The position numbers were made by a program, and so were the translations under genes. A stretch of DNA of 64,000 nucleotides, taken from assembly GCF_026210795.1 (NCBI RefSeq), contig NC_089433.1, positions 1,116,001-1,180,000 on the forward strand, in the 5' to 3' direction. The stretch is from Rhizophagus irregularis (lineage: Eukaryota > Glomeromycota > Glomeromycetes > Glomerales > Glomeraceae). The notes beneath the pieces are model-generated. The model did not search any database, was not told where the DNA came from, and saw nothing but the letters and a program-made list of their open reading frames with translations. Positions 4,427 through 62,195 of the stretch are shown piece by piece. The stretch's first letter is position 1. Each line of letters starts with the position of its first letter.

Positions 4427-5899
4427 ATGTTCAAATTTAATAAAGATATTCTTTTTCTAATATTTGAAGAATTACAAGATGATTCGAAATCCCTCTTTTC
4501 ATATCTAATGGTCAATAGACTTTGGTGTAAAACAGTTACTCCGATTTTATGGAAGAATCCTTGGTGCTATGATATTGATTACAGTAATAAAAATTATTTA
4601 TTTATAATCATTGCTTCTTACTTGTCTGAAGATATTAAAGAATCCCTGACAAGAGAAGGAATTCAATTACCGCCAGTTACATATCAACCACTTTTATTTG
4701 ATTATATATCTTATTGTAGAAGTATTAATGTAAATACTTTGAATACTATAGCTTCTATTGGATCATCTTTAGCTTATAATCAATTTATTTTACAACAAGA
4801 ATTTTATGGTATCTTTATGAATAAATTTCCAGAATTAAAGTATTTGGATATGAGATCAATTAGACATCAAATATTTTATTTTCCAGGAGCTAGGGTTCGT
4901 TTCGAATCACTTTGTGAATTAAAATGTGATACATCAGTTAATTCATCATATTTTTATGGATTGGCGTATTTATGTCAATATATACAGAGACTCGTCATTG
5001 TTAATACAGACCCAAGTGATTATCATGGGGCTTCTAAATTAATTGAAGTCCAGAAAAATTTAAAGTATTTTGAATGGAAGGATGATCATGATATATATGC
5101 TCCTGGGCCAGATGGGGATTCTTATAAAGAGGTGCTTTTTGCATTAGAAGAAAGTGCGAATACTATCAACCATTTAGTTCTAGACTTTAAGTTTACTGAT
5201 CATACATCGCCAAAGGTAATCCCAAAACTTCATAAACTAAAAACATTGATAAATATTTTCAGTGATTTCAAAGAACAACAATTAAAAATGTGTGTTTATC
5301 ATGATCTTGAGATCTTTAAAATAGACTATTACAATTTAAAAGCGGCTTCCATTATAATTGAAAATAGCGGGGGATATTTAAAGAAAATCTTATTGGAACC
5401 TTATTATTTTAACAATTATGTTAATGATTTCAATGAAGATTCTCTTATTTTAATACGCAATATTCATAAATATTGTCCTACAATTGAATGTTTGTCTCTT
5501 ATATTTTCACCTTCAAATGAGCATTTTACCGAACTTGAAAAATTGCTAAAAAATTGCCAAAATTTGAAATCATTATTATTAGTTATGTTTGATCATGCAC
5601 AATCAACTCATGAAAACATTTTAGAATATGGAAAAAGTTTATTAGAAATATTAATTAGTTCAACACCAACCAATATGAAAGAAATTAGAATTTGTGGCGA
5701 GTTTGAATTCTCTTTAGAAGATTTAGAAGAATTCTTAGAATCATGGGACGGTTGCGCACTTTCCATACTTACTTCCGAATTTACTTATGAAAAAGAGGAT
5801 TATCAAGATCTAATTAATAAATATAAAAATAATGGAGTAATCAAAAATTTTATACGCGAATCTTATGAAAATGTAATAAATATTAATTTTAAGATGTGA
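4427..5899 (+). CDS. F-box protein (paralog 2), 490 aa
   Basis: An intact single-exon F-box gene and a close tandem paralog of 1233-2726. The F-box is at residues about 3-46 (FNKDILFLIFEEL, SYLMVNRLWCKTVTPILW). It shares the conserved middle block (YLDMRSIRHQIFYFPGA, then LCELKCDTSV, then QYIQRLVIVNTDPSDY) and the C-terminal ILTSEFTYEKEDY block. Differences from paralog 1 cluster around residues 220-300 and 395-420, including small in-frame deletions, so the presumed substrate-binding region is diverging faster than the F-box. It probably acts as an SCF adaptor. The substrate is unknown. Confidence 0.9.
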   Translation: MFKFNKDILFLIFEELQDDSKSLFSYLMVNRLWCKTVTPILWKNPWCYDIDYSNKNYLFIIIASYLSEDIKESLTREGIQLPPVTYQPLLFDYISYCRSINVNTLNTIASIGSSLAYNQFILQQEFYGIFMNKFPELKYLDMRSIRHQIFYFPGARVRFESLCELKCDTSVNSSYFYGLAYLCQYIQRLVIVNTDPSDYHGASKLIEVQKNLKYFEWKDDHDIYAPGPDGDSYKEVLFALEESANTINHLVLDFKFTDHTSPKVIPKLHKLKTLINIFSDFKEQQLKMCVYHDLEIFKIDYYNLKAASIIIENSGGYLKKILLEPYYFNNYVNDFNEDSLILIRNIHKYCPTIECLSLIFSPSNEHFTELEKLLKNCQNLKSLLLVMFDHAQSTHENILEYGKSLLEILISSTPTNMKEIRICGEFEFSLEDLEEFLESWDGCALSILTSEFTYEKEDYQDLINKYKNNGVIKNFIRESYENVININFKM

Positions 5900-13495: not shown

Positions 13496-14986
13496 ATGTC
13501 CAAACTCAATAAAGATATACTTTTCTTAATATTTGAGGAATTGCAGGATGATTCAAAATCCCTCTTTTCATGCTTAATGGTAAACAAGCATTGGTGTGAA
13601 ACTGTTATCCCAATTTTATGGAAGAACCCTTGGAATTATAATATTAATTATCGTAACAAAAGTTATTTATTTGCCATTATTACTTTCTATTTATCCGATG
13701 ATATTAAAGAATTTCTAACAAGACAAGAAATCCAATTACATTCAATCTCATCCAAATCACTTTTTTTTGATTATTTATCATTTTGCAGAAGTATTAATGT
13801 AAATATTATCAATGCTTTAATATCTACTGGAACCTCTTTAGCTTATAATCAATTTCTTTTACAACAAGAATTTTACAGTCTATTTATGAAAAAATGTCCG
13901 GAGTTAAAGTATTTGGATATGAAATCAATTAAACACCAAATATTTTATTTCCCAGAAGCTAATTCTCGTCTTGAATCACTCTTTGAATTAGAATGTGATA
14001 CATCTATTGATTCTTTATTCTTTTATGGATTAGCACGTTTTTGTCGATATATACAAAGAATCATAATTGTTAATGTTGACCCAAATCCAAATCATCATGG
14101 AATTGTTAAATTGATTGAAGTTCAGAAAAATTTAAGGTATTTTGAATGGATTGATGATTTTGATTATGAAAAAGAATGTTTCACAGATGATTTTTATAAA
14201 GAAATTTTTCTTGAATTAAAAAATAAGGCAGATACACTAAATCATTTTAAATTATTTTATAATGATGATGAAGTTTATGGACGTGAAATTCTACAAGAGA
14301 TACTTCAAGTACTTCATAAACTGAAGACATTAATAATTAATGATTTGGGCACAATTAGTGAATATTTATTGAAGACGTTAATTTATAATGATCTTGAAAT
14401 CCTCAATATAAATTATATTACAATAAACGAGGCTTCTATTATAATTGAAAATAGTGGAGGACAACTTAAAGTGGTTTTATCAAAACCTTATTACCGTTTA
14501 TATAACGATGATTTTGATGAAGGTTCTCTCATGTTTATTCGTAAAGTTTATGAAAATTGTCCTTTAATTGAAGTTTTATCACTTGCATTTTCATCATCAA
14601 AGAAACATTTCGCTGAATTTGAGATATTATTAAACGTTTGTCAGAATTTGAAATCATTATTGTTGATTATAAGAAGTACTGATATAATTGAAACTGGAGA
14701 AAAAATTTTAGAAAATGGAGAAGAATTATTAAAAGTATTGATTAGAGCAGCACCAAAAAATTTAAGAGAACTCAGGTTTTTCAATAATTTTAAATTTTCT
14801 TTAGAAGCCTTGGATGAATTCTTAGGAAAATGGAAAGGATGTGCACTCTCCATTCTTACATCTGATATTATTTATGAAGAAGAAAATTATAAAAAATTAA
14901 TTAATAAATATAAAAATAAGGGAGTAATTAAAAGCTTTAGATGTGAATCTTTTATGAATGTAGAAGATATGAATTTTAAGATATGA
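13496..14986 (+). CDS. F-box protein (paralog 3), 496 aa
   Basis: An intact single-exon F-box gene. The F-box is at residues about 3-46 (LNKDILFLIFEEL, SCLMVNKHWCETVIPILWKNPW). The family blocks YLDMKSIKHQIFYFPEA, DPNPNHHGIVKLIEVQKNL and ENCPLIEVLSLAFSSSKKHFAE are all present. It is closer to paralog 4 (20833) than to paralogs 1 and 2, for example in EVLSLAFS and in FFNNFKFSLEALDEFL. Probably a Skp1-binding adaptor of an SCF ubiquitin ligase; the substrate is unknown. The start was chosen because it is followed directly by the conserved KLNKDILFLIFEEL block. Confidence 0.9.
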   Translation: MSKLNKDILFLIFEELQDDSKSLFSCLMVNKHWCETVIPILWKNPWNYNINYRNKSYLFAIITFYLSDDIKEFLTRQEIQLHSISSKSLFFDYLSFCRSINVNIINALISTGTSLAYNQFLLQQEFYSLFMKKCPELKYLDMKSIKHQIFYFPEANSRLESLFELECDTSIDSLFFYGLARFCRYIQRIIIVNVDPNPNHHGIVKLIEVQKNLRYFEWIDDFDYEKECFTDDFYKEIFLELKNKADTLNHFKLFYNDDEVYGREILQEILQVLHKLKTLIINDLGTISEYLLKTLIYNDLEILNINYITINEASIIIENSGGQLKVVLSKPYYRLYNDDFDEGSLMFIRKVYENCPLIEVLSLAFSSSKKHFAEFEILLNVCQNLKSLLLIIRSTDIIETGEKILENGEELLKVLIRAAPKNLRELRFFNNFKFSLEALDEFLGKWKGCALSILTSDIIYEEENYKKLINKYKNKGVIKSFRCESFMNVEDMNFKI

Positions 14987-20832: not shown

Positions 20833-22332
20833 ATGTTTAAACTTAACGAAGATATCCTTTTCTTAGTAATTGAAAAATTAAAAGATGATTCAAAATCCCT
20901 CTTTTCATGTTTAATGGTAAATAAACTTTGGTGTGAAAATACCATTCCGATCTTATGGAGAAATCCTTGGAGTTATGATATTGATTATTATAATGATAAT
21001 AATTATTTATTTACCATTATTATTTCTTATTTATCCGATGATATTAAAGAATTTCTAATTAGACAAGGAATTCAATTACCATCTCCATCAATTTCACCCC
21101 AATCGCTTTCATTTGATTATTTATCGTTCTGTAAAAGTATAAATATAATTATTATAAATATTATAATTTCAATTAAAACTTCTTTAATTTATAATCAATT
21201 TCTTTTACAACAAGAATTTTATAAATTATTTATGAAAAAATGTTCAGAGTTAATATATTTGAATATGAAATCTATTAAGCATCAAATATATTATTTTCCA
21301 GATGCTAATAATCGCCTTGAAACATTATATGAATTAGAATGTGATACATCAATTGATTCCTCATATTATTATGGATTGGCACGTATTTGTAAATGTATAC
21401 AAAGAATCATCATTTTTAATGTAAATCCAAAAGATAATCATGGAATTGCTAAATTAATTGAAGTTCAAAAGAATTTAAAGTATTTTGAATGGAATGATGA
21501 TTTTAAAAATATAGATTTTACATATGATCCTTATGAAGAAATCCTTTTTGAATTAGAAAAAAAGACAAATATTCTTAAACATTTAAAAATATTCTTACAT
21601 TATGTTGATAATTTTGAACGTTCATTATTATTATTACAAAATGTACTTATGAAACTTAATGGATTAAAAACATTAATGGGTGATTTTAGTATTTTTGGAG
21701 AACATGAAATGAAAATGTTATACTTTAATAATCTTGAAATCCTTCACATTGATTGTATTACATTAATTGAAGCTTCAATCATAATTGAAAATAGTGGAGG
21801 AAAACTTAAGGAAGTTTCAATAAAACCTTATGATTTTGTATATTATGAAGATAATTTTAGTGAAGACACTTTGATTTTTATTCGTAAGATTTATCAAAAA
21901 TGTCCTTTAATTGAAGTTTTATCACTTGCTTTTTCACTTTCAAAAGATCATTTTATTGAATTCGAAAATTTATTAAAAATTTGTCAAAATTTAAAATCTT
22001 TATTATTATTCACATCAAATTTTCATATACGTGAGACTGAAGAAAAAATTTTAGAAAGTGGTGAAGAAATTTTAAAAATATTAATTAGTTCTGCATCAAA
22101 TAATTTAAGAGAAATTAGATTTTTTAATAATTTCAAATTTTCTTTGGGAACTTTGGAAAATTTCTTAGAAAATTGGAGAGGTCGACCTGCACTTTCTATA
22201 CTTACTTCTAGTACTATTTATGAAGAGGAAGATTATAAAAATTTGATTGATGATTATAAAAATGATGGAGTGATTAAAACTTTTAAATATGAATCTGTTA
22301 TAAATGTAGAAAATATGAACTTTAGGATATGA
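20833..22332 (+). CDS. F-box protein (paralog 4), 499 aa
   Basis: An intact single-exon F-box gene. The F-box is at residues about 3-46 (LNEDILFLVIEKL, SCLMVNKLWCENTIPILWRNPW). The coding sequence is very AT-rich even compared with its paralogs, with Ile codons dominating residues 95-120. The family blocks YLNMKSIKHQIYYFPDA, KLIEVQKNLKYFEWNDDF and ALSILTSSTIYEEEDY are present. The last codons and the start of the 3' flank are repeated twice more downstream (see 22299-22500). Probably an SCF adaptor with unknown substrate. Confidence 0.9.
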   Translation: MFKLNEDILFLVIEKLKDDSKSLFSCLMVNKLWCENTIPILWRNPWSYDIDYYNDNNYLFTIIISYLSDDIKEFLIRQGIQLPSPSISPQSLSFDYLSFCKSINIIIINIIISIKTSLIYNQFLLQQEFYKLFMKKCSELIYLNMKSIKHQIYYFPDANNRLETLYELECDTSIDSSYYYGLARICKCIQRIIIFNVNPKDNHGIAKLIEVQKNLKYFEWNDDFKNIDFTYDPYEEILFELEKKTNILKHLKIFLHYVDNFERSLLLLQNVLMKLNGLKTLMGDFSIFGEHEMKMLYFNNLEILHIDCITLIEASIIIENSGGKLKEVSIKPYDFVYYEDNFSEDTLIFIRKIYQKCPLIEVLSLAFSLSKDHFIEFENLLKICQNLKSLLLFTSNFHIRETEEKILESGEEILKILISSASNNLREIRFFNNFKFSLGTLENFLENWRGRPALSILTSSTIYEEEDYKNLIDDYKNDGVIKTFKYESVINVENMNFRI

Positions 22333-29922: not shown

Positions 29923-32246
29923 TTAATAATCTTCAATCATACAATCAAACCCTTGAGACTCTACTTGAACTAAAATTTCAGTAAGTTTGCGACTTGTAAA
30001 ATGTGCTTGTGGATGAGATTGGATAATAGAAGTGTTTACTTGTTTTTGCACTAAAGATTTATTTGCTTCTACAAATTCAAGCATATCATTTGTTAACTGA
30101 TCATCAATATTAAGTAATCTATATTTATAATTTTCATCCCTGTTTACTTCATAATATTTATTAATACATCTAATCCATTCAGATATAATATTTTCAAGCA
30201 TTATTATAGTTGGTCTATTGGAAGGATTTAAATCCCAACATTTCTTCATTAAATTTGTATAACATTTTGGAGTATTTTTCGTAATTTTAGGACGTTTCCC
30301 TTCATAAACACTCAAGATAAAGTGATGATCATGTGCTTCATAGTTAAATGGAGGGATACCTGATGTAAATTCCCACATTATCATTGAAAGGCTATAAATA
30401 TCACTTGCTGAAGAGTATGGTTTTTTTCTTAATATTTCAGGCGCCATATAAGGTAAAACTCCATAAATTTCATTAATTTTTTTATCAGAATCTTGTAAAT
30501 CACTTATAGGTTTGCTAATCCTAAATCAATAATAAATAACTCATTGTAATTATCTGACATTAAAATATTACCATCATGAAAATCACCATGAGTTAAATTT
30601 GATTCATGTATTACTTTAAGTCCTAATATAATTTTTTTCAATAATCGTAACTTATCTTGCCATTTGAATTTAACTATATCAGGTAAACATTTTCTCAAAC
30701 TACCTTTTTTTGCATAACTCATTACTATTATATAATTTAAGTTATTTGGATCTTGGGTGAATCCAAAGAACTGTATAAATTTTGAAAATGATTTTTTCTG
30801 ACAATTATAATGATATTTCCACTATGTAAATAACAAAAATTATTAAACTTTTGTACAAAGAAATAAAATATGCTACTAAATATAAATACTATACCTCATT
30901 CAGAAATTCATTATTTAAACTTGATGAATTATTAAGTGATTTAAGAATAACCTCATAATATGTTTGCCTATTCCATTGTTGTTTATCAAAATTCCAACTA
31001 AAAATAGGTCCATCTGACCAGATAGCTTTATTAATTTCACTAAATCCTCCTTTAGCATAATAATCAATACTTGATAAATTATTGTAAGGTATCCACTCTA
31101 AAATTTCATAACTATTTTTAGCATTTAGCTGTGCTTCTTGAACAAATTCATCAATAAATTTATTTTTACTAGTCCACTTGAAAAATCTTGTTGAAATTGC
31201 TTAGTATTACATTGTTGGCACCATTGGTAATCAGTATTTAGTTGCTTGCATTCATTACAAAATTCATTTTTAGAACTTGTTTTGTTACTTTCTATTGCTA
31301 TTTGGTACCAATAAAAGGCCCTTTCTAAATTCCTTTTTGTTCCTTCTCCATTTCTATAACATGCAACTAAATTAAAAATTGCATCAATATGACTTTTTTT
31401 TGCTGCTTTTTGATACCAATGAAAGGCTTTTTCTAAATTCTTTTCTGTTCCTTTTCCATTTTTATAAAAATTGGCTAAATCAAACATTGCAATAATATGA
31501 TCTTTTTCTGCTGCTTTTTGATACCAATAAAAGGCTTTTTCAAAATTCTTTTCTGTTCTTTCTCCATTTCTATAAAATATGGCTAACTTAAACATTACAT
31601 TAATTTGACCTTTTTCTGCTGCTTTTTGACACCAATGAAAAGCTTTTTCTAAATTCTTTTTTGTTCCTTTTCCATAATAATAGTGAATGACTAAATTAAA
31701 CATTGCAATAATATGCTCTTTTTCTGCTGCTTTTTGATACCAATGAAAGGCTTTTTCAAAATTCTTTTCTATTCCTTCTCCATGTTTATAACGCACAGCT
31801 AAACTATACATTGCATCAATTTGACCTTTTTCTGCTGCTTTTTGACACCAATAAAAGGCTTTTTCAAAATTCTTTTCTATTCCTTCTCCATGTTTATAAT
31901 GCACAGCTAAATTATACATTGCATTAATTTGACCTTTTTCTGCTGCTTTTTGACACCAATAAAAGGCTTTTTCTAAACTTTTTTCTGTTCCTTCTCCATT
32001 TCTATAACATGTAGATAAATATAACATTGCATTAATATGATCATTTGCTGCTGTTTTTTGATACAAATAAAAGGCCTTTTCTAAATTCTTTTCTGTTCCT
32101 TTTCCATTCTTATAACAGTTCGCTAAACTAAACATTGCTTTTTTATCACCATTTTCTGCTAATTTTTCTAAAGAATCAATACATTCTTTACACCAAAGTT
32201 CTTCAGTAAAGGGCCTATTGCAATATAAACAATTTTTGGTGTTCAT
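29923..32246 (-). pseudogene. Sel1-repeat and protein kinase fusion gene with two single-base frameshifts
   Basis: The minus-strand gene starts at ATG 32244-32246. It begins with a Cys4 ribbon (C6, C9, C19, C22), followed by eight 36-residue Sel1 repeats (residues about 38-325; consensus AMFNLAxxYxNGEGTEKNLEKAFYWYQKAAEKxxI). Next is a second ribbon (CNEC-x8-WCQQC), then a TKL-like kinase domain: glycine loop YAKGGFSEINKAIW, VAIK-type lysine in VILK, catalytic loop HGDFHDGNIL, DLG in place of DFG, MAPE, and SDIYSLSMIMWE. The C-terminal SHPQAHFTSRKL tail follows. One intron lies at 30822-30894. The frame is lost near 31180 (after QQDF, expected KWTS) and near 30508 (after DLGLA); each needs one extra base, probably an A in an A-run. 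With both restored the product would be 750 aa. It is either a young pseudogene or carries sequencing errors. Confidence 0.85.
31125..32246 (-). CDS. Sel1-repeat protein (open N-terminal part, 373 aa)
   Basis: If the first frameshift is real, the gene makes a 373-residue protein of eight Sel1 repeats between two zinc-ribbon-like motifs and a 22-residue frameshifted tail. Sel1 repeats are TPR-like alpha/alpha helical hairpins that mediate protein-protein contacts in signalling and ER quality control. In glomeromycotan genomes they are often fused to or found near kinases. At the DNA level the repeats form a clear 108-bp tandem array at about 31280-32150, which makes this part prone to repeat gain and loss. 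Repeat 6 has ERTEKN where the others have EGTEKN or KGTEKN. Confidence 0.8.
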   Translation of the reverse strand: MNTKNCLYCNRPFTEELWCKECIDSLEKLAENGDKKAMFSLANCYKNGKGTEKNLEKAFYLYQKTAANDHINAMLYLSTCYRNGEGTEKSLEKAFYWCQKAAEKGQINAMYNLAVHYKHGEGIEKNFEKAFYWCQKAAEKGQIDAMYSLAVRYKHGEGIEKNFEKAFHWYQKAAEKEHIIAMFNLVIHYYYGKGTKKNLEKAFHWCQKAAEKGQINVMFKLAIFYRNGERTEKNFEKAFYWYQKAAEKDHIIAMFDLANFYKNGKGTEKNLEKAFHWYQKAAKKSHIDAIFNLVACYRNGEGTKRNLERAFYWYQIAIESNKTSSKNEFCNECKQLNTDYQWCQQCNTKQFQQDFSSGLVKINLLMNLFKKHS

Positions 32247-36028: not shown

Positions 36029-37346
36029 GCTTTTACAATTTAGCACGAAATAATTTGTAAGGAGTGAGGCGCAGCTAATAAATTTTTCGGTGAAATGGTA
36101 AGTCGGGTAATTTTACTTCCCGGTGAAATGGAGTAGAAGTAGGTAAATTTTTCATGTCGGTAAAATGAAAGTCAGCAAAATGGCGTCGGTTAAATTTCAT
36201 GTCAGTAAAATGAATCTATAAATTGTACTGTACATTCATTTTACCATTTGTTTTCTGTATTTTTTAACTATCTTATTTTTTTGCTTTTACAATTTAGCAC
36301 AAAATAATTTGTAAGGAGTGAGGCGAAGCTAATAAATTTTTCGGTGAAATGGTAAGTCGGGTAATTTTACTTCTCGGTAAAATGACATTTCGGTGAAATG
36401 GAGTGGGAGTAGGTAAATTTTCATGTCGGTAAAATGAAAGTCAGCAAAACGGCGTCGGTTAAATTTCATGTCAGTGAAATGAATCTATAAATTGTACTGT
36501 GCCCTCATTTTTTCCATTTTTTTTCTGTATTTTTTAACTATTTTATTTTTTTGCTTTTACAATTTAGCACGAAATAATTTGTAAGGAGTGAGGCGCAGCT
36601 AATAAATTTTTTCGGTGAAATGGTAAGTCGGGTAATTTTACTTCTCAGTAAAATGAAAGTCAGCAAAATGGCGTCGGTTAAATTTCATGTCAGTGAAATG
36701 AGTCTATAAATTGTACTGTACATTCATTTTTATCATTTGTTTTCTGTATTTTTTATTTATTTTTTTGCTTTTACAATTTAGCACGAAATAATTTGTAAGG
36801 AGTGAGGCGCAGCTAATAAATTTTTTCGGTGAAATGGTAAGTCGGGTAATTTTACTTCTCAGTAAAATGAAAGTCAGCAAAATGGCGTCGGTTAAATTTC
36901 ATGTCAGTGAAATGAGTCTATAAATTGTACTGTACATTCATTTTTATCATTTGTTTTCTGTATTTTTTATTTTATTTTTTTGCTTTTACAATTTAGCACA
37001 AAATAATTTTAAAGTAATAAATTTTTCGGTGAAATTTGGTAAGTGAGGCGAAGCTAATAAATTTTTCGGTGAAATGGTAAGTCGGGTAATTTTACTTCTC
37101 GGTAAAATGACATTTCGGTGAAATGGAGTGGGAGTAGGTAAATTTTCATGTCGGTAAAATGAAAGTCAGCAAAATGGCGTCGGCTAAATTTCATGTCAGT
37201 GAAATGAATCTATAAATTGTACTGTGCCCTCATTTTTTCCATTTGTTTTCTGTATTTTTTAACTATTTTATTTTTTTGCTTTTACAATTTAGCACGAAAG
37301 AATTTGTAAGGAGTGAGGCGCAGCTAATAAATTTTTCGGTAAAAGG
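36029..37346. repeat. Tandem array, 5 units of 214-297 bp, made of GTCGGTAAAATG-type motifs
   Basis: The block GCTTTTACAATTTAGCACGA starts at 36029, 36283, 36553, 36767, 36982 and 37279, giving units of 254, 270, 214, 215 and 297 bp. Each unit contains GGAGTGAGGCGCAGCTAATA and a series of CGGTGAAATGG, CGGTAAAATG and CAGCAAAATGG motifs, ending with TCTATAAATTGTACTGT. The fifth unit has an internal partial duplication. The short motifs match those in the 520-bp foldback family, so the array may have grown from such an element. It ends exactly against the broken Harbinger transposase. Confidence 0.85.
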
Positions 37347-38469: not shown

Positions 38470-41400
38470 ATTTATTCCTCACCCCGGGTGAGATTTAATA
38501 TTCTTCACCCCTAAAAATTTTTTTATTTTTTGTTATGTATTTATATGCGTTTTATAATATATTATATATAAAAAAAAATAAAGTTATATTTATTGTATGC
38601 CAAATATATACATATCGTTGATCAATCTTTATTGTTTGATTTCGCCAAATAAACGTAACAATTGAATTGTATCGCACTACTACTAAACAAAATACAAAAT
38701 AATCTTCGCTATAAACATGTGATTATGTAAAGTTCATTATTGTTTTGAACAAGTATTACGATAATGACCGTTTTCTCCACATAAACCACACTTACGACCT
38801 TTATCACCAGAAATTGCTTGTTCACTCCCATTTTTGACTTTATTTGAACCTGATTTTTCAAAAGATGATTTTAACCGCTTCGTTGCGGGTCTACCCTTTG
38901 GTTGATGCTTTAACGGATCCATTATTTGATTAGAATCAACCAATACTCCCCTTGTATTATGAAAAACTCGATTATCATTTGCAATCATTTTTCTTCTTAC
39001 TAAATCTTCTTGTTGTCTAATTGATTCCGCTTGAATTAATTGAGCTTCCCTTCTTTTGTTATATTCTCTTATAAACTGAATTAGTTCTTCATCATCATCT
39101 TGAATCGCAAATTGAATTGCCTTTTTGGCTTCACCCATTAAAGTACCAAATTTCAATTGTTTTTGTGATATTTGCCTGGAATAGCTCTCTGAAAGATCAT
39201 TTACAGTATATTTTCGCGTAAATTCTAAAGTGATTTGTGTATTATTTTGATCATTTTGGCAACTATTCATTATTATTTCACTAGAAGAGATATCACTTGA
39301 AGTGATATATTCATCTTTATACCAACGCTTGGGAATCAACACCAAATGAAAATATGCTTTAGGAGTTTCAACAAACACTTTAAAAAAATGTCTGCATATA
39401 ATACCATGCGTTACAAGCATGAAACAAGTGCATAAATATTCTCCGGTATTAAGCAAAATCACATGTTGATAACACTTCGGAAAATTATACCGAGAGACCT
39501 TCCAAATTTCTAAAATATCGTCTGAGTTAACCATTGAAATCAAGGATTTTAAGTCAAGTTCCCGATCCTCATCAGCTTCAATAGGTGTTTCAATAGAATC
39601 ATCTACTTCTTTATCAAAAAAAGGTTCAAATGAATCGTCATCTGATGCTGAAATTTCGGAAAATGGTACTTGATGTGTACGATAACATACAGATTGGCAC
39701 ATCTGCTTATAATGTGCATCATGAATTGGTTGAGTGAGATACTTTTTCATGGTAATATCAATGTCTTTAAAAAACGTTTGAATAACAAAGGGTTGTGTAT
39801 ACTGTAATGTTGAGGATTTCCAAATTGAATAACGATTGTTAATCAACTCAAATTCTAGCCGATTTTCAATTGATTCTTGAACTTGTGAAAGAAAAAAACT
39901 TGACTGTACAGCCTTCTGTATCAACGCATTTTCTGATTCTACGCGTTGTGTGGATTGTGTTCCCGCCGTGAAATGCCTTGATGTAAAACACTTTACCCAC
40001 GTATGTTTTCTATTTAGTAGCATTGTAGTTATATATTTTTTCCCTGCTTCATATTTTTCAACTATACCTGCAGACCGGCGTTCAAATACACTTTCACAAT
40101 GAGAACGTTGGATTGCCCTAAAATCTTTGAGAAACTCTTGATAAAGAGGTGATCCTAAGCATGAACGAAGATTTTTTGGAAGATTTTGGTAAAGATGGTA
40201 TAAACATTGCATATGATGAGTTTCTGGAAATACTGTAGAAATGGCTGCAATCATGGCAGGATCGGCATCAGTAACAAATGTCAATGGAGGAATTTCACAT
40301 GCTTCAAGACAACATCGAAGCAACCATTCATAAGATTCTTGTTTTTCATCTTGTATGAAGGCTTGGGCCGCCAACCTGCTCTTGTTATAATTATCAATTA
40401 AAATAAAGAGGCTTAATGGGTAGTTATACTTGTTAGTTCGCGCAGTATTGTCATGGATAATAATGTCATAAAATTTAGACCATCTTTCACGTTGTTCTGG
40501 TGACATCCAGAAAATACCAATTAGCCGGTTACTTGTATCATCTATTAATGGCTTTACAAACCATGCAGGATCATCTGCTTGCAATTCAAGAAGTCTCATT
40601 AATAAAGATGCTGCATCTCCTAAATTATTAAGGCCTTTTTCTTGTTTGATCTTTTGAATTGCATTTCCCAAGTCTTGGGTAAGAAATACACGATCAGGAT
40701 ACTTTGGTTGAAGAAGATTCCTAATTGTTCCTGCATCACATCGGCCATGCACAACATAAAATTCTATCTGTTCCATAATTTCTTCAGTAAAATTTTTGTA
40801 ACAAGTGGAGAATTTTATGGTATCGGTGAGAATCTCATGATTGTGTTCGTTATTAAATAACGTTACAGTTACTATGGGTGAATTTATTCGTCTATTAACA
40901 TTCATTTGCCACATACAGCCCTGTTTTTTGGTTCCTTTACTTTTTTCTTTACCTAATGTTGGCCTTAAAAGCTTCTCAGTATACCTTCCTCCTAAATCAC
41001 ACTTAAATACCCTTTTTCTACAAGTACCATCCGGAAATTTTTCACTTTTATGCTTAAAGACAGCAAAATTATTCTGAAGAGCGTACTGTTCTATAAAATG
41101 TACTGCAATTTCCATGGAATGAAACCTTGTTCCATTCTCAATCTCGATTAGAGTATTAATTAACGGAAAGCCACCAACATAATCTTTAAGTTCGGCACCT
41201 AATACACTTTTAACAACATATTCCTCACTATTATCATCATGATTGGTGGGTTCTGTAAAAGGTGAAACCTCATATAACATGATTAACCAAGCACAAAAAG
41301 CAAAGAACATGCAAGAGCAAATACTATTACGGTGCGTATTATGTAGCATGCATGTGAAAAACGCGTGACTGTGGCTTATAATTTATACTGTTTATTTTAT

Positions 41401-44024: not shown

Positions 44025-47000
44025 ATGAAAACACTCGTTCGTCCTTCATATAGTAAGGATTTTTTAGACCGCGGGACATTAAACGGGGGATATTTTCACA
44101 ATATTGGAAATATTAATAATATCCAACGACACGATGATAGATATTCGATTAAGGCTGAAAGCTTAGATATGGGCGTTTATTTACAAGAAGATACTTTTGT
44201 CTCTGAAATTAAATATACTAAATTAGTTTATTTCATCATTGATTATCAAAAACGTAATATAAAGGTAGAATTTGATGTTCATGGTAAATTATATTCATTA
44301 GAAAATGAATTCAATAATATTGAAGGTGAAATTTATGTTGAACAACAAAGACCTTATTGGTCTATTACCATCGCAAACAAATTTCCGCCAAGGTATTCAA
44401 TACGTGATGATAACAAACGTTCTTTTAAACGAATGACGAGAATACAAAGTTTAAGAAAAAGTAATGAACCACTTCAACCACATATGTCTGATAATAGTGA
44501 ACAATTAGGCAAATGGGTAGTTTTTAGAATATCCTTTAACAATCAAGCTAATAATCAATTTTATCGTTTTATAAATATGATTGATAAAGCTAGAGATTAT
44601 TCATTAGTATCTAAATTTAATAAACCATTAAAAATAGTAGCTGGGTCAACTTTAAACAAATATGTGAACCGTTCAAATTTAGATTTTGACATCCTATATA
44701 TGATCGAATGTAACCTTTCTTTTAATTACATTCACGATTATAATTTAAATGAAGATTTTTTTTCCTTTTTATCCGTTCAACCAAAAGACGCTGTAATTTA
44801 TGTTTTGGAAAAAATATTTGAAGAGAAAAATCGTATATACGATCCTTTATTATATTTACGTTCAGAGATCAAGAAACGTATTAATGTTTCTGTCAAATTT
44901 AATGAAGTACCTAATCATTGTGCAATGATGCGTAAGGTAGTAGTAACTCCTACTACTATGTATATGTTACCTCCAACTATGGAAACTTCTAATCGAGTGA
45001 TTCGTAATTATGAATATAAAAAAGATAATTTCTTACGAGTACATTTTTCTGATGAAGCATCAAATCCAATCGGTTCATCAAGTGGAAATTTTAATGATAC
45101 TTTTAATGATGCTTTATATAATAGGATTTATTATACATTAAATAATGGTATTAAAATTGGAAATGTACATTATGAATTTTTGGCCTTTTCTTCAAGTCAA
45201 TTGAGAGATCATTCTTGTTGGTTTTTCGCATCAACTGAGGATTTAACCGCAAATAATATAAGAAAGTGGATGGGTGATTTCTCGGATATCAAAACTGTTG
45301 CAAAATATGCTGCACGTATGGGTCAATGTTTTTCAAGTACTAGAGTGATTCAATATGTTCCAGTTAGTGATATTAAAGAAATTCCCGATATAATTAGAAA
45401 TGGGTATACATTTTCTGATGGTATAGGAAAAATATCTTTTTCATTAGCAGAAGTAATTGCAAAAGAATTAGATTTAAAAAGAATTCCAAGTGCTTTTCAA
45501 TTTAGAATGGCGGGATATAAAGGAGTTTTATGTCAATCACGTTATTTGAGAGCAAATCAAGTTCAAGTTCGTCCAAGTCAACATAAATTTAAATCAAATC
45601 ATAATATATTGGAAATTGTTAGATGTTCATCTTACCTTCCATCTTATCTTAATAGGCAAGCCATTACATTATTATCAGCATTAGGAATACCAGATGATGT
45701 ATTCATTCGAATGAAGGATCAACAAGTCAGTGAATTGAGTAGAATTTTTGAAAGTGATCTTTTAGCGTTAAATGTTTTACAACAAAATATTGATGAATAT
45801 GAAACTTCACAATCACTTATAGAATTAGTAAAAGCTGGATTCCTACAATCAAAAGATCCTTACTTAATTAATTTAATTTCTTTATTTCGTATCAAGATGT
45901 TACAAGATCTTAAAAAGAAAGCAAAAATTCGTGTGGGTAGAGGAGCATTTTTAATGGGTGTATTAGATGAAACGAAAACTTTAAAAGATAATGAAGTGTA
46001 TTGTTGTATATCTGATCCTTGTAATCCATCTAAAAGAAAAGTAATTACTGGAACTTGTATTGTATACCGTAACCCTTGTTTTCATCCTGGAGACATACGA
46101 ATCGTTAAAGCTGTATATTGTAATACTTTGAGCAATCTGATGGATGTATTGGTATTTCCTTCAGTTGGATATCGTGATATTCCAAATCAATGTAGTGGTG
46201 GTGATCTAGACGGTGATGATTTTACGTATGTACAATAATTAAACTATGTTAAATTTATATTAATTATTAAAAACAAAATCTAACTATTCCTCTTTTTAGA
46301 ATAATTTATGACGAACATCTAATCCCAAGTGAAGCGCATGAACCCATGAATTATAAATCTAAAAAACCAAAACCGGTCGATCATGTAACTATGGAAAGCA
46401 TTAAAGCATTTTTTGTAAATTATGTATTTTCTGATCAACTTGGTAAGATCGCCAATGCTCATTTGGCAAAAGCGGATTCTTTTCCAAATGGCGCACTCCA
46501 TGGACAATGTAAAGCTCTCGCTCATTTACACTCGGATGCTGTAGATTTTCCAAAAACGGGAATACCGGCAATAGTTCCACAGGAACTTCGTGTAGAACGC
46601 TTTCCAGATTTTATGGAAAAACATGATAAACTAAGTTACGAATCTGAAAAAGTTCTGGGTATTTTATATCGTTCTATTAAAGTAGTAGACTATGAACGAT
46701 ATACTAGTTTGAATTTCGATAAAAGGTTATTATATGTTGAAGGATATGAAAAATATTTAAATAATGCATTAAGACTTAAACGTGCATATGATGCAGAGAT
46801 AAAAGGGGTCATGAATCAATTTGGAATTATGACCGAATTTGAAGTAGTTAGTGGATACATTATTAATACAATTACCAAAATTGATAAGAAAAAACCAAGA
46901 AATGTAATAAAATCTGTAATGGATACAATAATTCCAATTAGAAAAAGTTACCGAAAAAAATTTGAGGAAGAGTTTTATGAAGAAGGAACTAAAATTATTC

Positions 47001-47146
47001 CATCAACAGCTTCTGATCAAATGAAATCAAAAGCCGTTGCTTGGTACTGTGTAACGTATGGATTGAAGGATGAAGATATGATATCTTTTCCTTGGATTGT
47101 GTACGACATTTTATGTGAAATTGTTAAAAATAGTAAGATTAAATGA
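44025..47146 (+). CDS. RNA-dependent RNA polymerase of the RNA-silencing pathway, 1015 aa, two exons
   Basis: Exon 1 is 44025-46225 and exon 2 is 46300-47146. The intron 46226-46299 has a GTATGT donor, a CTAAC branch site and a TTTTTAG acceptor; it splits the Thr734 codon and joins DGDDFT to IIYDEHLIPSEAHEPM. This is a cellular eukaryotic RdRP (QDE-1/RDR class). The two-barrel catalytic core holds YTFSDGIGKISFSLA (about residues 462-476), VRPSQHKF, IRVGRGAFLMGVLDE, NPCFHPGDIR and the active-site CSGGDLDGD with aspartates 727, 729 and 731. Such enzymes turn single-stranded RNA into double-stranded RNA for Dicer and small-RNA silencing of transposons and foreign RNA. At 1015 aa it is shorter than QDE-1 (about 1400), mostly at the N terminus, but no core block is missing. 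Glomeromycotan fungi have many RdRP copies. No frameshift is seen. Confidence 0.93.
46226..46299 (+). other. Intron of the RdRP gene
   Basis: A 74-bp intron: GTATGT at the donor, CTAAC near 46280, and CTCTTTTTAG at the acceptor. Without splicing, the frame stops four codons after DGDDFT; with splicing, the conserved RdRP sequence continues. This supports the exon model strongly. Confidence 0.9.
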
Positions 47147-56002: not shown

Positions 56003-59000
56003 TTACATACCTAATGACTTCAAATTAACTATACAATCATCCAAATCTTTACTTACTAGCATTTCATTCACTTTTACACTATCTTGTGATTCTTCATTTT
56101 CTTCATTCACTTTTCCACTAGTAGATTGACTTCTACTTTTAAGAATTTCATTTAACTGTTTACTAGTAAAATCATGTAAACGACTTGTATAATATGCATG
56201 TGGATGAGATTCAGTAGCAAGATTATTGTTTTGCCCAACTGGTGCATTTATAAATTCCATAATGTTGCTTTTTAATTCTTCACTGACTTCATAAGGACGG
56301 AAAATCCAATTCCTAATAATTTTTAATACTTCTCTAGAAGATGGCCTTTTTAATGGGTTTTCATCCCAACACCTTTTCATCAAATCTACATAACATTGTG
56401 GAATATTTTCAATAATTTCAGGACGTTCATCTTCACAAATGCCTAAACTAAGTTGAAGATCATGTGCTCTATTATTAAATGGTGGTATTCCAGATGTAAA
56501 TTCCCACATAATCATAGAAAAACTATATATATCACTAGCTGGAGTATAAGGTTTGCCTCTTAAAACTTCAGGAGCCATAAATGGTATGACACCATGAATA
56601 TCATACTTTTTCAAAAACGATTTTACAGATTGACATAATCCTAAATCACTAATATAAATCTTATAGACATCCACACCATAATCATGATTTAAAATATTAC
56701 CATCATGAAAATCACAATGAATAAGATTTTTTTCATGTATCTTATCAAGTCCAGAAATAATTTCGTACAACATATATAATTTTTGATTCCAATTATTTTT
56801 GGCTATACTTATTAAATTTTCTCTTAAATTACCTTTATTTGCATGATCCATTACTACCATATATTTTGAAGTATTTGGATCTTTTGTAAATCCATAAAAA
56901 TCTATAATATTGAAATCAGATACAACACTTGCATGATGTTTCCACTATAAAAAGTAATAATAGTTTATTAATATAAATAAATTTAATTTAAATTAAAAAT
57001 AGAAAATAATATACTATCATACTTCTTTCAAAAATTCATTTAAATTTTCATTTAAATTCTTGTGACATTTAAAAATTACTTCAACCTCTTCATCTTTATC
57101 TCTGTTATTCCTTAACCAAATAGCACTGTATATAGTACCAAATCCTCCTTCATTAAGATATTCAACATTTTTAAATTTGTCATAAGGAATCCATCTTAAT
57201 CCTTCTTTAATAATAAAATCATCTATAATTGCATTTCCACTTTTCCCAAATCTATAAATTTAAATAATTAAAATTATATTATAGATTGTATTGTAATTTA
57301 TACAAAATAAATTATTACTTACTCTAAAATTTAAATTAGGGATTTAATGAAATATAAGTCTTAATTTTTAGATAAATACATATAATAACCTATGATTTAC
57401 AACTTACCAACTAAAGTAACAGATATTGATATTTTTCAAATAAAAGAATTCAGTTAACAAATAAATATTATATAAAACATATAACAATAGAGATACTTAC
57501 AAACTAGATCATAAATAATTTTTAAATAAAGAGATTAGATAATTTAAATTATATCATTATATGTAAATATTATAACAATAAGTAACAATAGAATTAAATA
57601 AATAACTTACTCTCTATATTATTTAATAATTTTTTAAATAAAGAAATTAGATAGTTTAAATTATATGTAAATATTAAAACAATAAGTAACAATAGAATTA
57701 AATAAATAACTTACCATCTATAAAATAATTTTTTAAATAAAGAAATTAGATAGTTTAAATTATATGTAAATATTATAACATTAAGTAATAATAGAATTAA
57801 ATAAATAACTTACACCCTATATCATTTAATAATTTTTTAAATAAAGAAATTAGATAGTTTAAATTATATGTAAATATTATAACAATAAGTGACATTAGAA
57901 TTAAATAAATAACTTACCATCTATAAAATAATTTTTTAAATAAAGAAATTAGATAGTTTAAATTATATGTAAATATTATAACAATAAGTAATAATAGAAT
58001 TAAATAAATAACTTACACCCTATATCATTTAATAATTTTTTAAATAAAGAAATTAGATAGTTTAAATTATATGTAAATATTATAACAATAAGTAATAATA
58101 GAATTAAATAAATAACTTACACCCTATATCATTTAATAATTTTTTAAATAAAGAAATTAAATAATTTAAATTATATGTAAATATTATAACAATAAGTAAT
58201 AATAGAATTAAATAAATAACTTACTCTCTATATTAATTTAATAAATAAAGAAATTAGATAGTTTAAATTATATGTAAATATTATAACAATAAGTAATAAT
58301 AGAATTAAATAAATAAATCATGACTTACCAACTAAATTAAATTACAAAATAATTTTTTAAATAAAGAAATTAGATAGTTTAAATTATATGTAAATATTAA
58401 AACAATAAGTAACAATAGAATTAAATAAATAACTTACCATCTATAAAATAATTTTTTAAATAAAGAAATTAGATAGTTTAAATTATATGTAAATATTATA
58501 ACAATAAGTAATAATAGAATTAAATAAATAACTTACACCCTATATCATTTAATAATTTTTTAAATAAAGAAATTAGATAGTTTAAATTATATGTAAATAT
58601 TATAACAATAAGTAATAATAGAATTAAATAAATAACTTACACCCTATATCATTTAATAATTTTTTAAATAAAGAAATTAAATAATTTAAATTATATGTAA
58701 ATATTATAACAATAAGTAATAATAGAATTAAATAAATAACTTACTCTCTATATTAATTTAATAAATAAAGAAATTAGATAGTTTAAATTATATGTAAATA
58801 TTATAACAATAAGTAATAATAGAATTAAATAAATAACTTACTATCTATAAATAATTTAATAAATAAAGAAATTAGATAGTTTAAATTATATGTAAATATT
58901 ATAACAATAAGTAATAATAGAATTAAATAAATAACTTACTCTCTATATTAATTTAATAAATAAAGAAATTAGATAGTTTAAATTATATGTAAATATTATA

Positions 59001-60157
59001 ACAATAAGTAATAATAGAATTAAATAAATAAATCATGACTTACCAACTAAATTAAATTACAAAATAATTTTTTAAATAAAGAAATTAGATAGTTTAAATT
59101 ATATAAATTATATGTAAATATTATAACAATAAGTAATAATAGAATTAAATAAATAACTTACACCCTATATCATTTAATAATTTTTTAAATAAAGAAATTA
59201 GATAGTTTAAATTATATGTAAACATGAATATTATAACAATAAGTAATAATAGAATTAAATAAATAACTTACCATCTATTTAAATAAAGAATTTAGTTAGT
59301 TTAAATTATATGTAAATATTATAACAATAAGTAATAATAGAATTAAAATAAATAACTTACTATCTATAAATAATTTTTTAAATAAAGAATTTAGTTAGTT
59401 TAAATTATATAAATAATAATAAAAAAACTAGATATCTATAACTTACACCCTAGTGTTGTTAATTAATTATTAGTTAAGTATAAATATAATATAAAATTAT
59501 TTACTGTAAATTAAATATATCACTTACAAACTAGTTGTTTAAATTAAGAATATAATTAGTTGAGTTATATAAAATATTAAACAAATAAATATGATATTAT
59601 AACTTACCTTCTGTAATACAATAATTATTAAATAGTTAATTAAATAAAGAATTTAGTTATTTGAATATTATGTAAAATAAACAAAGTAAAGAATTAAAAT
59701 TTAAATAACTAATAACTTACTGACTATAGTATTATTAATCATTAAATGAATTATTTAATTACATAAAATGTAATAAAAATGATAAGTAAATCCATTATTA
59801 TTCAATTATAAGATAACCTATTAACTTACAATCTATATTTGTATATTATATAAGGTGTAATTATAGATAGTATTTAAATGCATTTACAAATAAAAATTTA
59901 ATATTTTAGCATGTTTAATATACCTATAGATTCCTTGGTACAACTTTTTTCAAATTCTTCAAAGCCACTTTCTTTGAATTCCTCGAATTCCTCAGAGCCA
60001 CTTCCTTCAAATTCTTCAGTACTGCTTCCTTCAAGTTCAATATTACCAGAAACTAGTTTTATTATATTATAAATTTGTTTAAAATATTAGAATTCTAATT
60101 GTATTAAATGTTTATATTATATATATGATTATTACCCTTATCATTATTAAGAGCCAT
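56003..60157 (-). CDS. TKL-like protein kinase with a 26-member micro-exon array, predicted 465 aa
   Basis: Exon 1 is 60157-60136 (MALNNDK plus one base). Exon 2 is 60052-59924, an acidic stretch of EEFEGSGSEEFEEFKESG type. Then come 26 micro-exons (25 of 3 nt, one of 1 nt) between 59832 and 57323, exon 3 at 57251-57023 and exon 4 at 56944-56003. Lengths 22+129+76+229+942 give 466 codons in one frame with no internal stop. The kinase domain has a glycine loop EGGFGTIY (110-117), the lysine K137 in VIFKC, HCDFHDGNIL with catalytic D230, DLG (D252) in place of DFG, MAPE (275-278) and SDIYSFSMIMWEFTSG. It is of the soluble TKL-like type abundant in glomeromycotan fungi. The tail has the SHPHAYYTSRL block. 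Exons 3 and 4 are certain. The micro-exon part (residues 51-76) is a sequence-based prediction that needs RNA evidence. Substrate and role are unknown. Confidence 0.85.
56945..57022 (-). other. Intron between kinase exons 3 and 4
   Basis: A 78-bp intron with donor GTATGAT after codon FLKE and acceptor TTTTTATAG before WKHHASV. It falls at the same place as the intron of the Sel1/kinase gene (30822-30894, between FLNEV and WKYHYN), which supports both models. Confidence 0.85.
57253..59923 (-). repeat. Tandem array of introns separated by 3-nt (and one 1-nt) micro-exons
   Basis: On the minus strand, units of about 80-118 bp each begin GTAAGT and end in YTAG or TTAG (once CAG). The commonest unit starts GTAAGTTATTTATTTAATTC and ends ACTATCTAATTTC (branch-like CTAAT), then an A/T stretch and TATAG. 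Between each acceptor and the next donor lie only: ATT 59830, TCA 59721, AAG 59608, TTT 59528, GGT 59447, ATA 59361, ATG 59272, GGT 59162, TTG 59044, AGA 58940, ATA 58852, AGA 58745, GGT 58641, GGT 58537, ATG 58438, TTG 58329, AGA 58225, GGT 58121, GGT 58017, ATG 57918, GGT 57814, ATG 57715, AGA 57611, TTT 57501, TTG 57408, A 57323 (lower coordinate of each, in transcript order). The array encodes residues 51-76 of the kinase gene if all are spliced in. Confidence 0.9.
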
Positions 60158-60670
60158 TACTATATAATTATATTAAAATTCTTTCTTACTGGAAAAAAGA
60201 ATGATAATGTAAATATCTTTTTTATTATTAAACGCCTTTATTAATATAGGTATATATGGTGATAATATTTATGCAAAATGCATTATGCATGTATAACAAA
60301 CAAATTTTGCACATATATCTCAATCATTGTTGCACAGCAAAATCATAAAGCAAAGAAAAATTTCTTAATACATACTAGTTATAAAATCAGTTTTCATATT
60401 CTGGCCAGGTCAGTAAATTACAAATTCAAAAATTTTTTATAATTTTAATTTTTTTTTATATTAAGATAATTGGCCAATAAAAATAGTTTATATTTTATAA
60501 TATCATAATAACATGAAATCAATATCATCAATATCATAATAAATTGAGGCGGATAAATATTGCTTTAAAGAAAATTTCTTATTCGGATAAATGGAAAAAA
60601 AAAAATGTTAGCAATTTTATTTATTTTATTTTGTTAATTTTTATTTTAGAAAGTTTTTACTTCAAATCAC

Positions 60671-60780
60671 CGGGAGTGATCATCACCGTTGGCCAGAATT
60701 ATCAATTTTTACCGGCACTATATTCATTGTAATGCTGGTCAATCGTCATAATTTCAGTCACCGGTGATCATCACCTCCCG
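60671..60780. mobile_element. Small inverted-repeat element (CGGGAG-TGATCATCACCG)
   Basis: The left arm CGGGAGTGATCATCACCG and the right arm, in reverse complement CGGGAGGTGATGATCACCGG, are imperfect inverted copies about 75 bases apart. Both run into AGAATTATCA or GAAATTATGA, so similarity extends inward. A hairpin/MITE of about 110 bp without clear target duplication. Confidence 0.6.
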
Positions 60781-62195
60781 ATGATAGTTAGTAAAATTCT
60801 TTCAGATAATCATTATTATTAAAGGTCATAATATTAACTTCCAAATCGGTATCCTAATATAATTTATTCTTTTAGGACATAAATTGAATATAAATAAATG
60901 ATTAAATTTTGAATTTAAAAAAAGAATAATGATTAATTTACAAAATTAATTTATTTAAAAACGATTTCTGATGAATAAAAAGATTTAAGATCTCAAGTAA
61001 TTAATATGCACTTTGTTTATTATAATTTTTGTATATTTCTTAATCCATTAATCATTTACGCGTTTATTCTGTTTTATTTCTTTGTATAAGATATTATTTA
61101 TATTTAAGATAAGTATACTAGAAACTGGAAAAGTATATTAACAAAATTTATTTAATAATATTAAAATATAGTATTAAATAATGTATATCACCTTTTACAA
61201 AATTTTACTATGAATATTAACTTGTAAGAAATATTGGTGCGCAAATTTTTCAAAAATTAAGAGTAAACTGATCTTCTAACAGTGGTCGTAATTCTATCGA
61301 GGGATACAGTACCTTAAATCAATAAAGTTGCATATTTCAAGTTTTACATCAAAATCGACAGATATTTTACATTGTTTTTGTTTTTGATCGGGTATAACTA
61401 AACCTTGTTATATTTATATTTTAACAATTTCAACTTGCTACTAACATTTTATAATTTTTTGCGTACTATCTATCACATGACATAATTAATATTCTGAAAT
61501 ATATTTAATTACAAGAAATATTTATAAATAGCGTTAAAATTTTATTAGTTCAATATATATAAAGCTCTTCTCGGACTTAGAAGATAATTTTAATTTTTTT
61601 TATTTGTTGCTGCTGACTACTAGTTATTGATTCCAAAATGATGACATTTTCGAAATTGTAGTGGAAGACGCAACCTTTGATGACCCAAATAAAGATTCAA
61701 TACCTTCAACATTCTTATAGCCAATATATCATCATTCAGTTTGTTATCATCTATGTTAAATAGTCATTTTTAATAAGTTTTATTTAAATAAGATCAATTT
61801 AAATTATTTTTATTTTTTTTACGTAAATATATTAATAATAAAAATGTTTGTGAAACTGTTATATTTGTAATTCAACTAAATTTGTTAAAACTTTATCAAA
61901 ATATAATTATCTGTTCTGAAATGCATTTTTAACCGATTAAATTGATTAATTAATTAAATGAGATACCTTAATTGGTTAACCAACTTAATCGATTAATTAA
62001 TCGATTAATCTCCAACTTCTAAAAATTTAATCAATGTGTTCTATCACAAAAGTAAAGTTGCAAAATAAAAAAATTAAAACGAGTTTTATTAGTTTTATTA
62101 AGAATTTATCTGTAAAATTTTGAAACTTAAAAACAAATAATTGTTCTATTATAATATAATGTAATTTTCTTTGTTTTGTTAAGTGAACATGTACC

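Follow-up and report, generated by a model that had tools for sequence, protein, structure and literature searches.

We analysed a 64,000-nucleotide stretch of the Rhizophagus irregularis genome (contig NC_089433.1, positions 1,116,001 to 1,180,000; hereafter the window), the minus strand of which carries a kinase gene with 25 triplets and one single base, each surrounded by complete introns, in the 2.7 kb between its exons 2 and 3. All 26 sites reported in a preliminary description of this DNA, namely 25 of the form AG-N3-GTAAGT and one of the form AG-N1-GTAAGT, are present between 59924 and 57251 (Table 1). A plain search of the 64-kb window for TAGNNNGTAAGT returned 25 matches, 24 of which lie within the array, against a chance expectation of 0.31. 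The same description considered most units to be near-identical tandem copies, which holds for the central part of the array; the outer units on either side lack such near-identity, and the 3-nt spacing is nevertheless kept in them. Judged from the DNA sequence, the array is very probably a protein-coding series of single-codon exons by which a kinase family varies its N-terminal segment.

Exon 2 leaves 1 nt of a codon at its end, the array adds 76 nt, and exon 3 then continues in frame to a complete kinase. With every micro-exon included, the gene would have the 30 exons previously proposed for it and a single intact frame of 465 codons (MALNNDKVSGNIE...TKESI-DFKVWYNGFENKRWYVERWYGYEIF-EFGKSGN...WIPYDKF...), the array supplying 76 of the 1398 coding nt. 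The predicted 465-aa protein matches the Pfam domain PK_Tyr_Ser-Thr (PF07714) over residues 105-360 with an E-value of 1.8e-39 and a score of 136.1 bits, compared with a curated cut-off of 23.1. Skipping of the whole array was rejected on frame, as exon 2 joined directly to exon 3 reaches a stop at codon 60. Short first exons like that of the window gene were modelled in four other loci (L005, L010, L024 and L025) by a search that demanded phase 1, so that they carry no evidence of phase.

Table 1. Predicted exons and repeat units of the kinase gene, in window coordinates
Feature	Position	Strand	Basis
Exon 1, 22 nt, ATG start (MALNNDK + 1 nt)	60136..60157	-	spliced model
Exon 2, 129 nt, acidic, E/F/S-rich, 1 nt of codon at end	59924..60052	-	spliced model
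Whole array, 26 micro-exons and 27 introns, between exons 2 and 3	57252..59923	-	
3-nt exon 1 of array, ATT	59830..59832	-	
3-nt exon 2 of array, TCA	59721..59723	-	
3-nt exon 3 of array, AAG	59608..59610	-	
3-nt exon 4 of array, TTT	59528..59530	-	
3-nt exon 5 of array, GGT	59447..59449	-	
3-nt exon 6 of array, ATA	59361..59363	-	
3-nt exon 7 of array, ATG	59272..59274	-	
3-nt exon 8 of array, GGT	59162..59164	-	
3-nt exon 9 of array, TTG	59044..59046	-	
3-nt exon 10 of array, AGA	58940..58942	-	
3-nt exon 11 of array, ATA	58842..58844	-	
3-nt exon 12 of array, AGA	58745..58747	-	
3-nt exon 13 of array, GGT	58641..58643	-	
3-nt exon 14 of array, GGT	58537..58539	-	
3-nt exon 15 of array, ATG	58438..58440	-	
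3-nt exon 16 of array, TTG	58329..58331	-	
3-nt exon 17 of array, AGA	58225..58227	-	
3-nt exon 18 of array, GGT	58121..58123	-	
3-nt exon 19 of array, GGT	58017..58019	-	
3-nt exon 20 of array, ATG	57918..57920	-	
3-nt exon 21 of array, GGT	57814..57816	-	
3-nt exon 22 of array, ATG	57715..57717	-	
3-nt exon 23 of array, AGA	57611..57613	-	
3-nt exon 24 of array, TTT	57501..57503	-	
3-nt exon 25 of array, TTG	57408..57410	-	
1-nt exon (A), middle base of split GAA codon, restores kinase frame	57323..57323	-	
Exon 3, 229 nt, FGKSGN...WIPYDKFKNVEYLNEGGFGTIY, kinase domain start	57023..57251	-	spliced model
Exon 4, 942 nt, remaining kinase domain (HCDFHDGN) and tail, stop codon included	56003..56944	-	spliced model
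Near-identical central units, tandem repeat of period 104, 16.6 copies	57556..59278	-	

Recurrence of the arrays and structure of their introns

Recurrence was assessed in 146,748,485 bases on 32 contigs, with each pattern read backwards as a control. The pattern GTAAGT, 75-105 nt, TAG, N3, GTAAGT has 3738 matches in the genome versus 23 in the control, and the same pattern with N2 (19 matches, control 22) or N4 (19 matches, control 23) stays at background. The 1-nt exon together with its intron and the opening bases of exon 3 was found by an exact pattern at 79 places and never in the control; the closing 1-nt exon was seen in seven of the seven arrays first examined. Because only the top-ranking candidates were scored, a protein search of the genome with exon 3 gives a minimum count, namely 151 homologous kinase exons. 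Among 20 homologues outside the 79 places, hand-picked from these exon-3 matches, 18 carry arrays (4 to 13 AG-N3-GTAAG sites in 1.4 kb), and the 1-nt site is found by pattern in 14 of the 20. The earlier one-gene model was right in its architecture and too small in its extent, as the same array recurs in a family with at least 151 kinase exons. Ten of the 79 array ends lie on contig C24, which holds many family copies.

Micro-exon chains were read in 49 loci, comprising the window gene, six first-listed arrays, 19 of the 79 places (every fourth), the 20 homologues from outside the 79 (1.4 kb each) and three likely recent duplicates. The chain finder seeks a GT or GC donor and an AG acceptor and leaves micro-exon length free at 1-12 nt; its first splice models were trained on the 3-nt-spaced sites of the first seven loci and contained no length term. 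This first version missed weak acceptors and donors, which produced long introns and a few apparent stops, and the final counts come from a retrained finder. The 19 systematic loci contain 449 exons of 3 nt, 20 of 1 nt (19 of them anchored by design), two of 6 nt and one of 2 nt. With the retrained models, and with 29 anchored ends left out, 934 of the 962 micro-exons in the 49 loci are exactly 3 nt long; another 18 measure 1 nt, of which 16 close the chains of unanchored loci (12 of the 16 are A) and two are internal. Arrays in the 29 longer loci hold 3 to 56 triplets, some of them being truncated by the limits of the fetched stretch or of the chain. Locus L046 (C14:1921584-1927166) has two AG-N2 sites, which are two of the 19 genome-wide N2 matches, and one AG-N4 site before GTAAGT; this array is either broken or uses other splice sites.

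Each unit had also been described as a complete intron with donor, branch-like motif and acceptor. Donor and acceptor stand: among 600 distinct introns from 26 loci, the donor is GTAAGT in 527 and the acceptor is TAG in 568 and CAG in 29. The branch-like motif does not occur in every unit, CTRAY being found 12-70 nt before the acceptor in 430 of the 600 introns versus 126 of 600 after shuffling. In the same introns, AG occurs six times within 25 nt upstream of the acceptor, against 73.4 expected, and retention of the intron would bring in an in-frame stop in 594 of them. The GC content is 9% in introns and 38.7% in triplets. Median intron length is 95 nt (689 introns), and 30 of 942 introns in the 49 loci are longer than 130 nt. 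With a GT donor consensus, an AG acceptor, a branch motif and AG exclusion, all of them U2-type features, the array introns look like ordinary spliceosomal introns in the features tested.

Insertions or unrelated sequence lie between the last micro-exons and exon 3 in L036, L037, L041, L042 and L003, which is consistent with introns tolerating insertions. A short element with GGTGATGAT...GTGATTTGAAGTAAAAA is located upstream of the kinase gene at window positions 60650-60790, and a similar string occurs inside an array intron of L001 (near 4700). The element may be mobile and insert into introns; a search for inverted pairs in window positions 60600-60850 found none.

The encoded segment and neighbouring features of the window

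In the frame set by exons 2 and 3, each codon consists of the last base of one triplet and the first two bases of the next. The 623 neighbour joins in 26 loci make no stop, compared with 24.2 +/- 3.7 when triplets are shuffled within loci (0 of 5000 shuffles as low), and stops appear in 24 of 623 joins in reversed order, in 22 of 565 skip-one joins and at 4 to 6% for the other distances tried. Twenty extra loci gave 0 of 154 for neighbour joins, 9 of 154 reversed and 5 of 130 skip-one, and a re-run over all 49 loci gave 0 of 847, 34 of 847 and 27 of 766, respectively. These counts leave out joins over introns longer than 130 nt, and both finder versions yield no stops in joins over introns up to that length. 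When each distinct pair is counted once per locus, the 26 loci provide 505 joins with no stop where about 22 are expected, joins within a locus being not fully independent. After a T-ending triplet, none of 250 joins continues with AA, AG or GA, compared with 124 of 597 after other triplets (49 loci; Fisher p 2.8e-21). Since forward neighbour joins make no stops, selection acts on triplets joined to their direct neighbours in order, and the simplest cause of this footprint is translation of the fully spliced product. Skip-one joins are unprotected from stops, which points to full inclusion as the selected product.

At the downstream end, exon 3 was found by pattern in 23 of the 26 loci, and in 21 of these the last triplet, the single A and exon 3 together read in frame as EFGKSGN or something close to it; L003, L004 and L005, with variant exon-3 starts, stand outside the 23. 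F, D, R, W, L, Y and N are abundant among the encoded residues, W accounting for 54 of 623 in the 26 loci. Triplets taken as whole codons (phase 0), for which GGA/GGC and ATC/ATT changes would be silent, were rejected because the phase is fixed by exons 2 and 3, because 4 of 934 triplets would then read TAA, TAG or TGA, and because neighbour joins avoid stops. Exact 3-nt spacing, the single frame and the absence of stops from 847 neighbour joins together support the proposal of the preliminary description that the micro-exons are spliced one by one, and individually spliced 3-nt exons are the only reading we found that accounts for all of these.

The ends of the segment recur in many loci, with a start like A-L/F-D/N-D-W and an end like P/A-F-EFGKSGN, and the middle varies in length and residues. 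Exon 3 is 97.8% identical between L015 and L046, yet their triplets are largely different inside almost identical introns. Unit pairs within a locus were picked by identical outer flanks, and their triplets were then compared with held-out near flanks. In 107 such pairs from 16 loci, near flanks differ by 1.1% and triplets by 19% per base, a ratio of 16.9 (10.0-44.2, bootstrap over loci), and the triplet differences amount to 14% at the first, 10% at the middle and 33% at the last position. Single triplet changes within loci fall on the last, first and middle base in 21, 5 and 2 cases at the strictest threshold and in 33, 6 and 5 at the loosest; between loci the numbers are 60, 28 and 1 (loosest threshold). 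The middle base of a triplet is the wobble base in the anchored frame. The segment predicted from the arrays is hypervariable between paralogues and between near-identical units, with its two ends and the kinase conserved, and the pattern of triplet variation fits diversifying selection on residues.

Elsewhere in the window, four same-strand open frames with no Pfam match (1233-2726, 4427-5899, 13496-14986 and 20833-22332, plus strand; 497, 490, 496 and 499 aa) are perhaps one multi-copy gene family or mobile element, by their similar length. A Sel1-repeat protein (31125-32246, minus strand) has 36-aa repeats that are also a 108-bp DNA tandem repeat of about eight copies, and a MULE/FAR1-type transposase frame of 870 aa is found at 38737-41349 (minus strand). 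An RNA-dependent RNA polymerase (RdRP) frame of the RNA-silencing type, 737 aa long (44025-46238, plus strand), spans profile positions 1-442 of 582 and is directly followed by a second open frame (46346-47146). Tandem repeats with periods of 270 and 214 at 36121-37009 carry a GTAAAATG/GTGAAATG motif, which is also present at 3973-4121.

Proposed mechanism and alternative explanations

We propose that every unit, about 95 nt long, forms a full spliceosomal intron with a GTAAGT donor, a CTAAY-type branch region, a stretch poor in AG and a TAG acceptor, and carries 3 nt of message at its edge. If such short introns are recognised as units, exon length would be immaterial, and their successive removal, which we infer to take place in vivo, would leave exon 2, every triplet in order, the 1-nt exon and the kinase exon in one frame. 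Every codon would be split, taking its first base from one triplet and its second and third from the next. The 1-nt exon would bring the array length to 1 modulo 3, such that skipping of the whole array is out of frame and any number of triplets is in frame once the 1-nt exon is included. It follows logically from these lengths that the kinase stays in frame only if the array end with its 1-nt exon is included, and that the number of triplets is free. Duplication or loss of a unit would alter the segment by whole codons and make new split codons, and insertions and indels would almost always fall in introns, for example the insertions in L001, L003, L037 and L041. The product would be a kinase with a private N-terminal segment of up to 57 residues in the loci read. 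Because of its hypervariability, its residue composition and the size of the family, our guess is that this may be a specificity segment concerned with partners, ligands or self/non-self recognition.

Several observations weigh against this account. The excess of triplet variation is smaller between loci, where near flanks differ by 6-8% and triplet bases by 0.24, 0.15 and 0.49 (first, middle and last; strictest threshold), and the seven near-identical pairs of the window array show no triplet difference, the diversification signal coming from other loci. The ranking of changes, with the last base changing most and the middle base least, would also mimic wobble variation if triplets were whole codons, a reading countered by the anchored frame and the avoidance of stops. 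Some copies deviate: no AG-N3-GTAAG sites occur in the 1.4 kb of L026, the splice sites of L044 have decayed and its exon 3 is shortened, the last join of L009 makes a stop, and exon 3 of L018 is out of frame. Exceptions in length across the 49 loci are four micro-exons of 2 nt, one of 4 nt, four of 6 nt, one of 10 nt and the two internal ones of 1 nt. Three of 28 joins over introns longer than 130 nt make a stop; in two of the three, a skipped 3-nt unit with a weaker donor is visible in between. An intronless or retroposed copy with joined triplets was not found by two genome-wide patterns. The joined 3' end pattern (one mismatch allowed) gave two matches, as did its control, and the one fetched (L051) had no kinase reading, while neither of the two exact matches to the conserved-start pattern (control 0) lies in related sequence, L049 being part of a long open frame that has a GSAGTGKS motif and L050 having no kinase exon nearby. 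Finally, the splicing is a prediction, strongly supported, from selection on the sequence, and no precedent was found for a chain of dozens of 3-nt exons.

The arrays could be a non-coding intronic minisatellite made of tandem copies of a splice-edged intron unit, with the actual transcript bypassing it or beginning downstream of it. Copying alone would preserve the spacing within one array, and the central tandem units are near-identical, but the spacing is kept in dissimilar outer units and in 49 loci despite varying intron lengths, and the direct join of exons 2 and 3 is out of frame. Stops are avoided only in forward neighbour joins (0 of 847 versus 34 reversed), and a GC content of 39% in triplets versus 9% elsewhere is not expected of a non-coding satellite, which leaves this explanation very improbable. 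Broken copies such as L018, L026 and L044 might suggest that the arrays are relics: the first parts of these kinase genes would be dead, and translation would now begin downstream of them to yield the kinase domain. However, the 847 stop-free joins, and the frame that continues intact across the 1-nt exon in 21 of 23 loci, demand that selection acts, or acted until recently, on the product of splicing, and we give the relic explanation hardly any credence. If the micro-exons are real, triplets could instead be skipped in varied combinations, giving many isoforms per gene as in the micro-exon genes of schistosomes; any 3-nt exon is skippable without loss of frame, and the kinase frame demands only the 1-nt exon. 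Such combinatorial use seems quite unlikely, as skip-one joins contain stops at about the same rate (27 of 766) as reversed ones (34 of 847), and low-level skipping may still occur.

The excess of triplet variation could also result from mutation or conversion, either targeted at the exon/donor edge or through homogenisation of introns around older triplets, and not from selection for residues. The donor-adjacent last base varies most (0.33 per pair versus 0.14 and 0.10), and the ratio of triplet to intron variation exceeds what selection usually gives. On the other hand, few single changes touch the wobble base alone: within loci they number 2 of 28 under the strictest threshold and 5 of 44 under the loosest, and between loci 1 of 89. 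Nor are stops made; selection acts on the survivors, whatever makes the changes. We consider mutation or conversion a somewhat unlikely cause that nevertheless deserves attention, and infer a role for selection. Starting from protein-coding arrays of single-codon exons, it is plausible, if a little less likely than not, that the arrays are an evolved diversity generator. Introns would serve as homology handles for duplicating, losing and shuffling single codons without damage to the frame, split codons would create new residues at each new junction, and selection, perhaps with targeted mutation, would keep some 150 kinases different, resulting in a repertoire of recognition kinases.

Comparison with known systems and significance

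Recursive splice sites leave 0 nt, and stwintrons are nested introns. The arrays resemble both in that splice sites almost touch and introns would be removed in succession, and they differ in that each step would leave exactly one codon's length of message. Schistosome micro-exon genes have many very small symmetrical exons and form families with variable proteins, their micro-exons make up to 75% of the coding sequence, and the proteins, mostly with a signal peptide, have isoforms that arise through exon skipping (PMC4015677). The preliminary description had named them as the closest parallel, and they are the nearest architecture among the known systems. Shared features are the variable proteins of the families and the many tiny symmetrical exons (here 934 of 962 exactly 3 nt), the loss of any one of which keeps the frame. 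The arrays are unlike them in exon size, schistosome micro-exons being 6 nt and longer and those described here having 3 nt, the smallest whole-codon size, and in that the array of the window gene, with 76 of 1398 nt, does not form a large part of the coding sequence. They are also unlike them in encoding part of a kinase, in having skipping unprotected and in ending on a 1-nt exon.

A 1-nt exon in Arabidopsis APC11 is needed for the frame and was tested in vivo (PMC4674806), and another in Fusarium CYP621A is supported by reads and described by its authors as the second such case and the first from a fungal gene (PMC12940212). The 1-nt exon described here is likewise required for the frame; unlike those cases, which are isolated in one gene or one orthologue group, it follows an array of 3-nt exons and is found at 79 places by exact pattern. 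A 3-nt micro-exon is spliced in Drosophila homothorax (PMC7392893), where, unlike in the arrays, it is a single alternative exon formed by the first 3 nt of a longer exon. Tyrosine-kinase-like genes are expanded in R. irregularis (PMC4219462), for which 2,533 kinase genes have been reported (PMC10234402), and the PK_Tyr_Ser-Thr domain of the window gene matches this kinase expansion. The latter report, searched for gene-structure, repeat and kinase terms, makes no mention of such arrays (PMC10234402). Among the papers listed by our search of the open-licence literature, none describes arrays of single-codon exons or reports micro-exons from R. irregularis. We know of no described system that writes a protein segment one codon per exon, and to our knowledge the codon-per-exon array is new in kind, though on a stricter view it may count as an extreme form of the micro-exon gene.

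If the arrays are spliced and translated as proposed, they would take exon size to the coding limit on a large scale, with thousands of single-codon exons joined in long series as opposed to isolated cases of 1 or 3 nt. They would provide a test of how intron definition works with practically no exons, and a present-day example of the long-standing idea that introns aid the shuffling of coding pieces, the piece being one codon. For a large family of kinases in an important plant symbiont, gene models would then probably be without their hypervariable segment, because standard spliced alignment has trouble placing exons of 1 and 3 nt.

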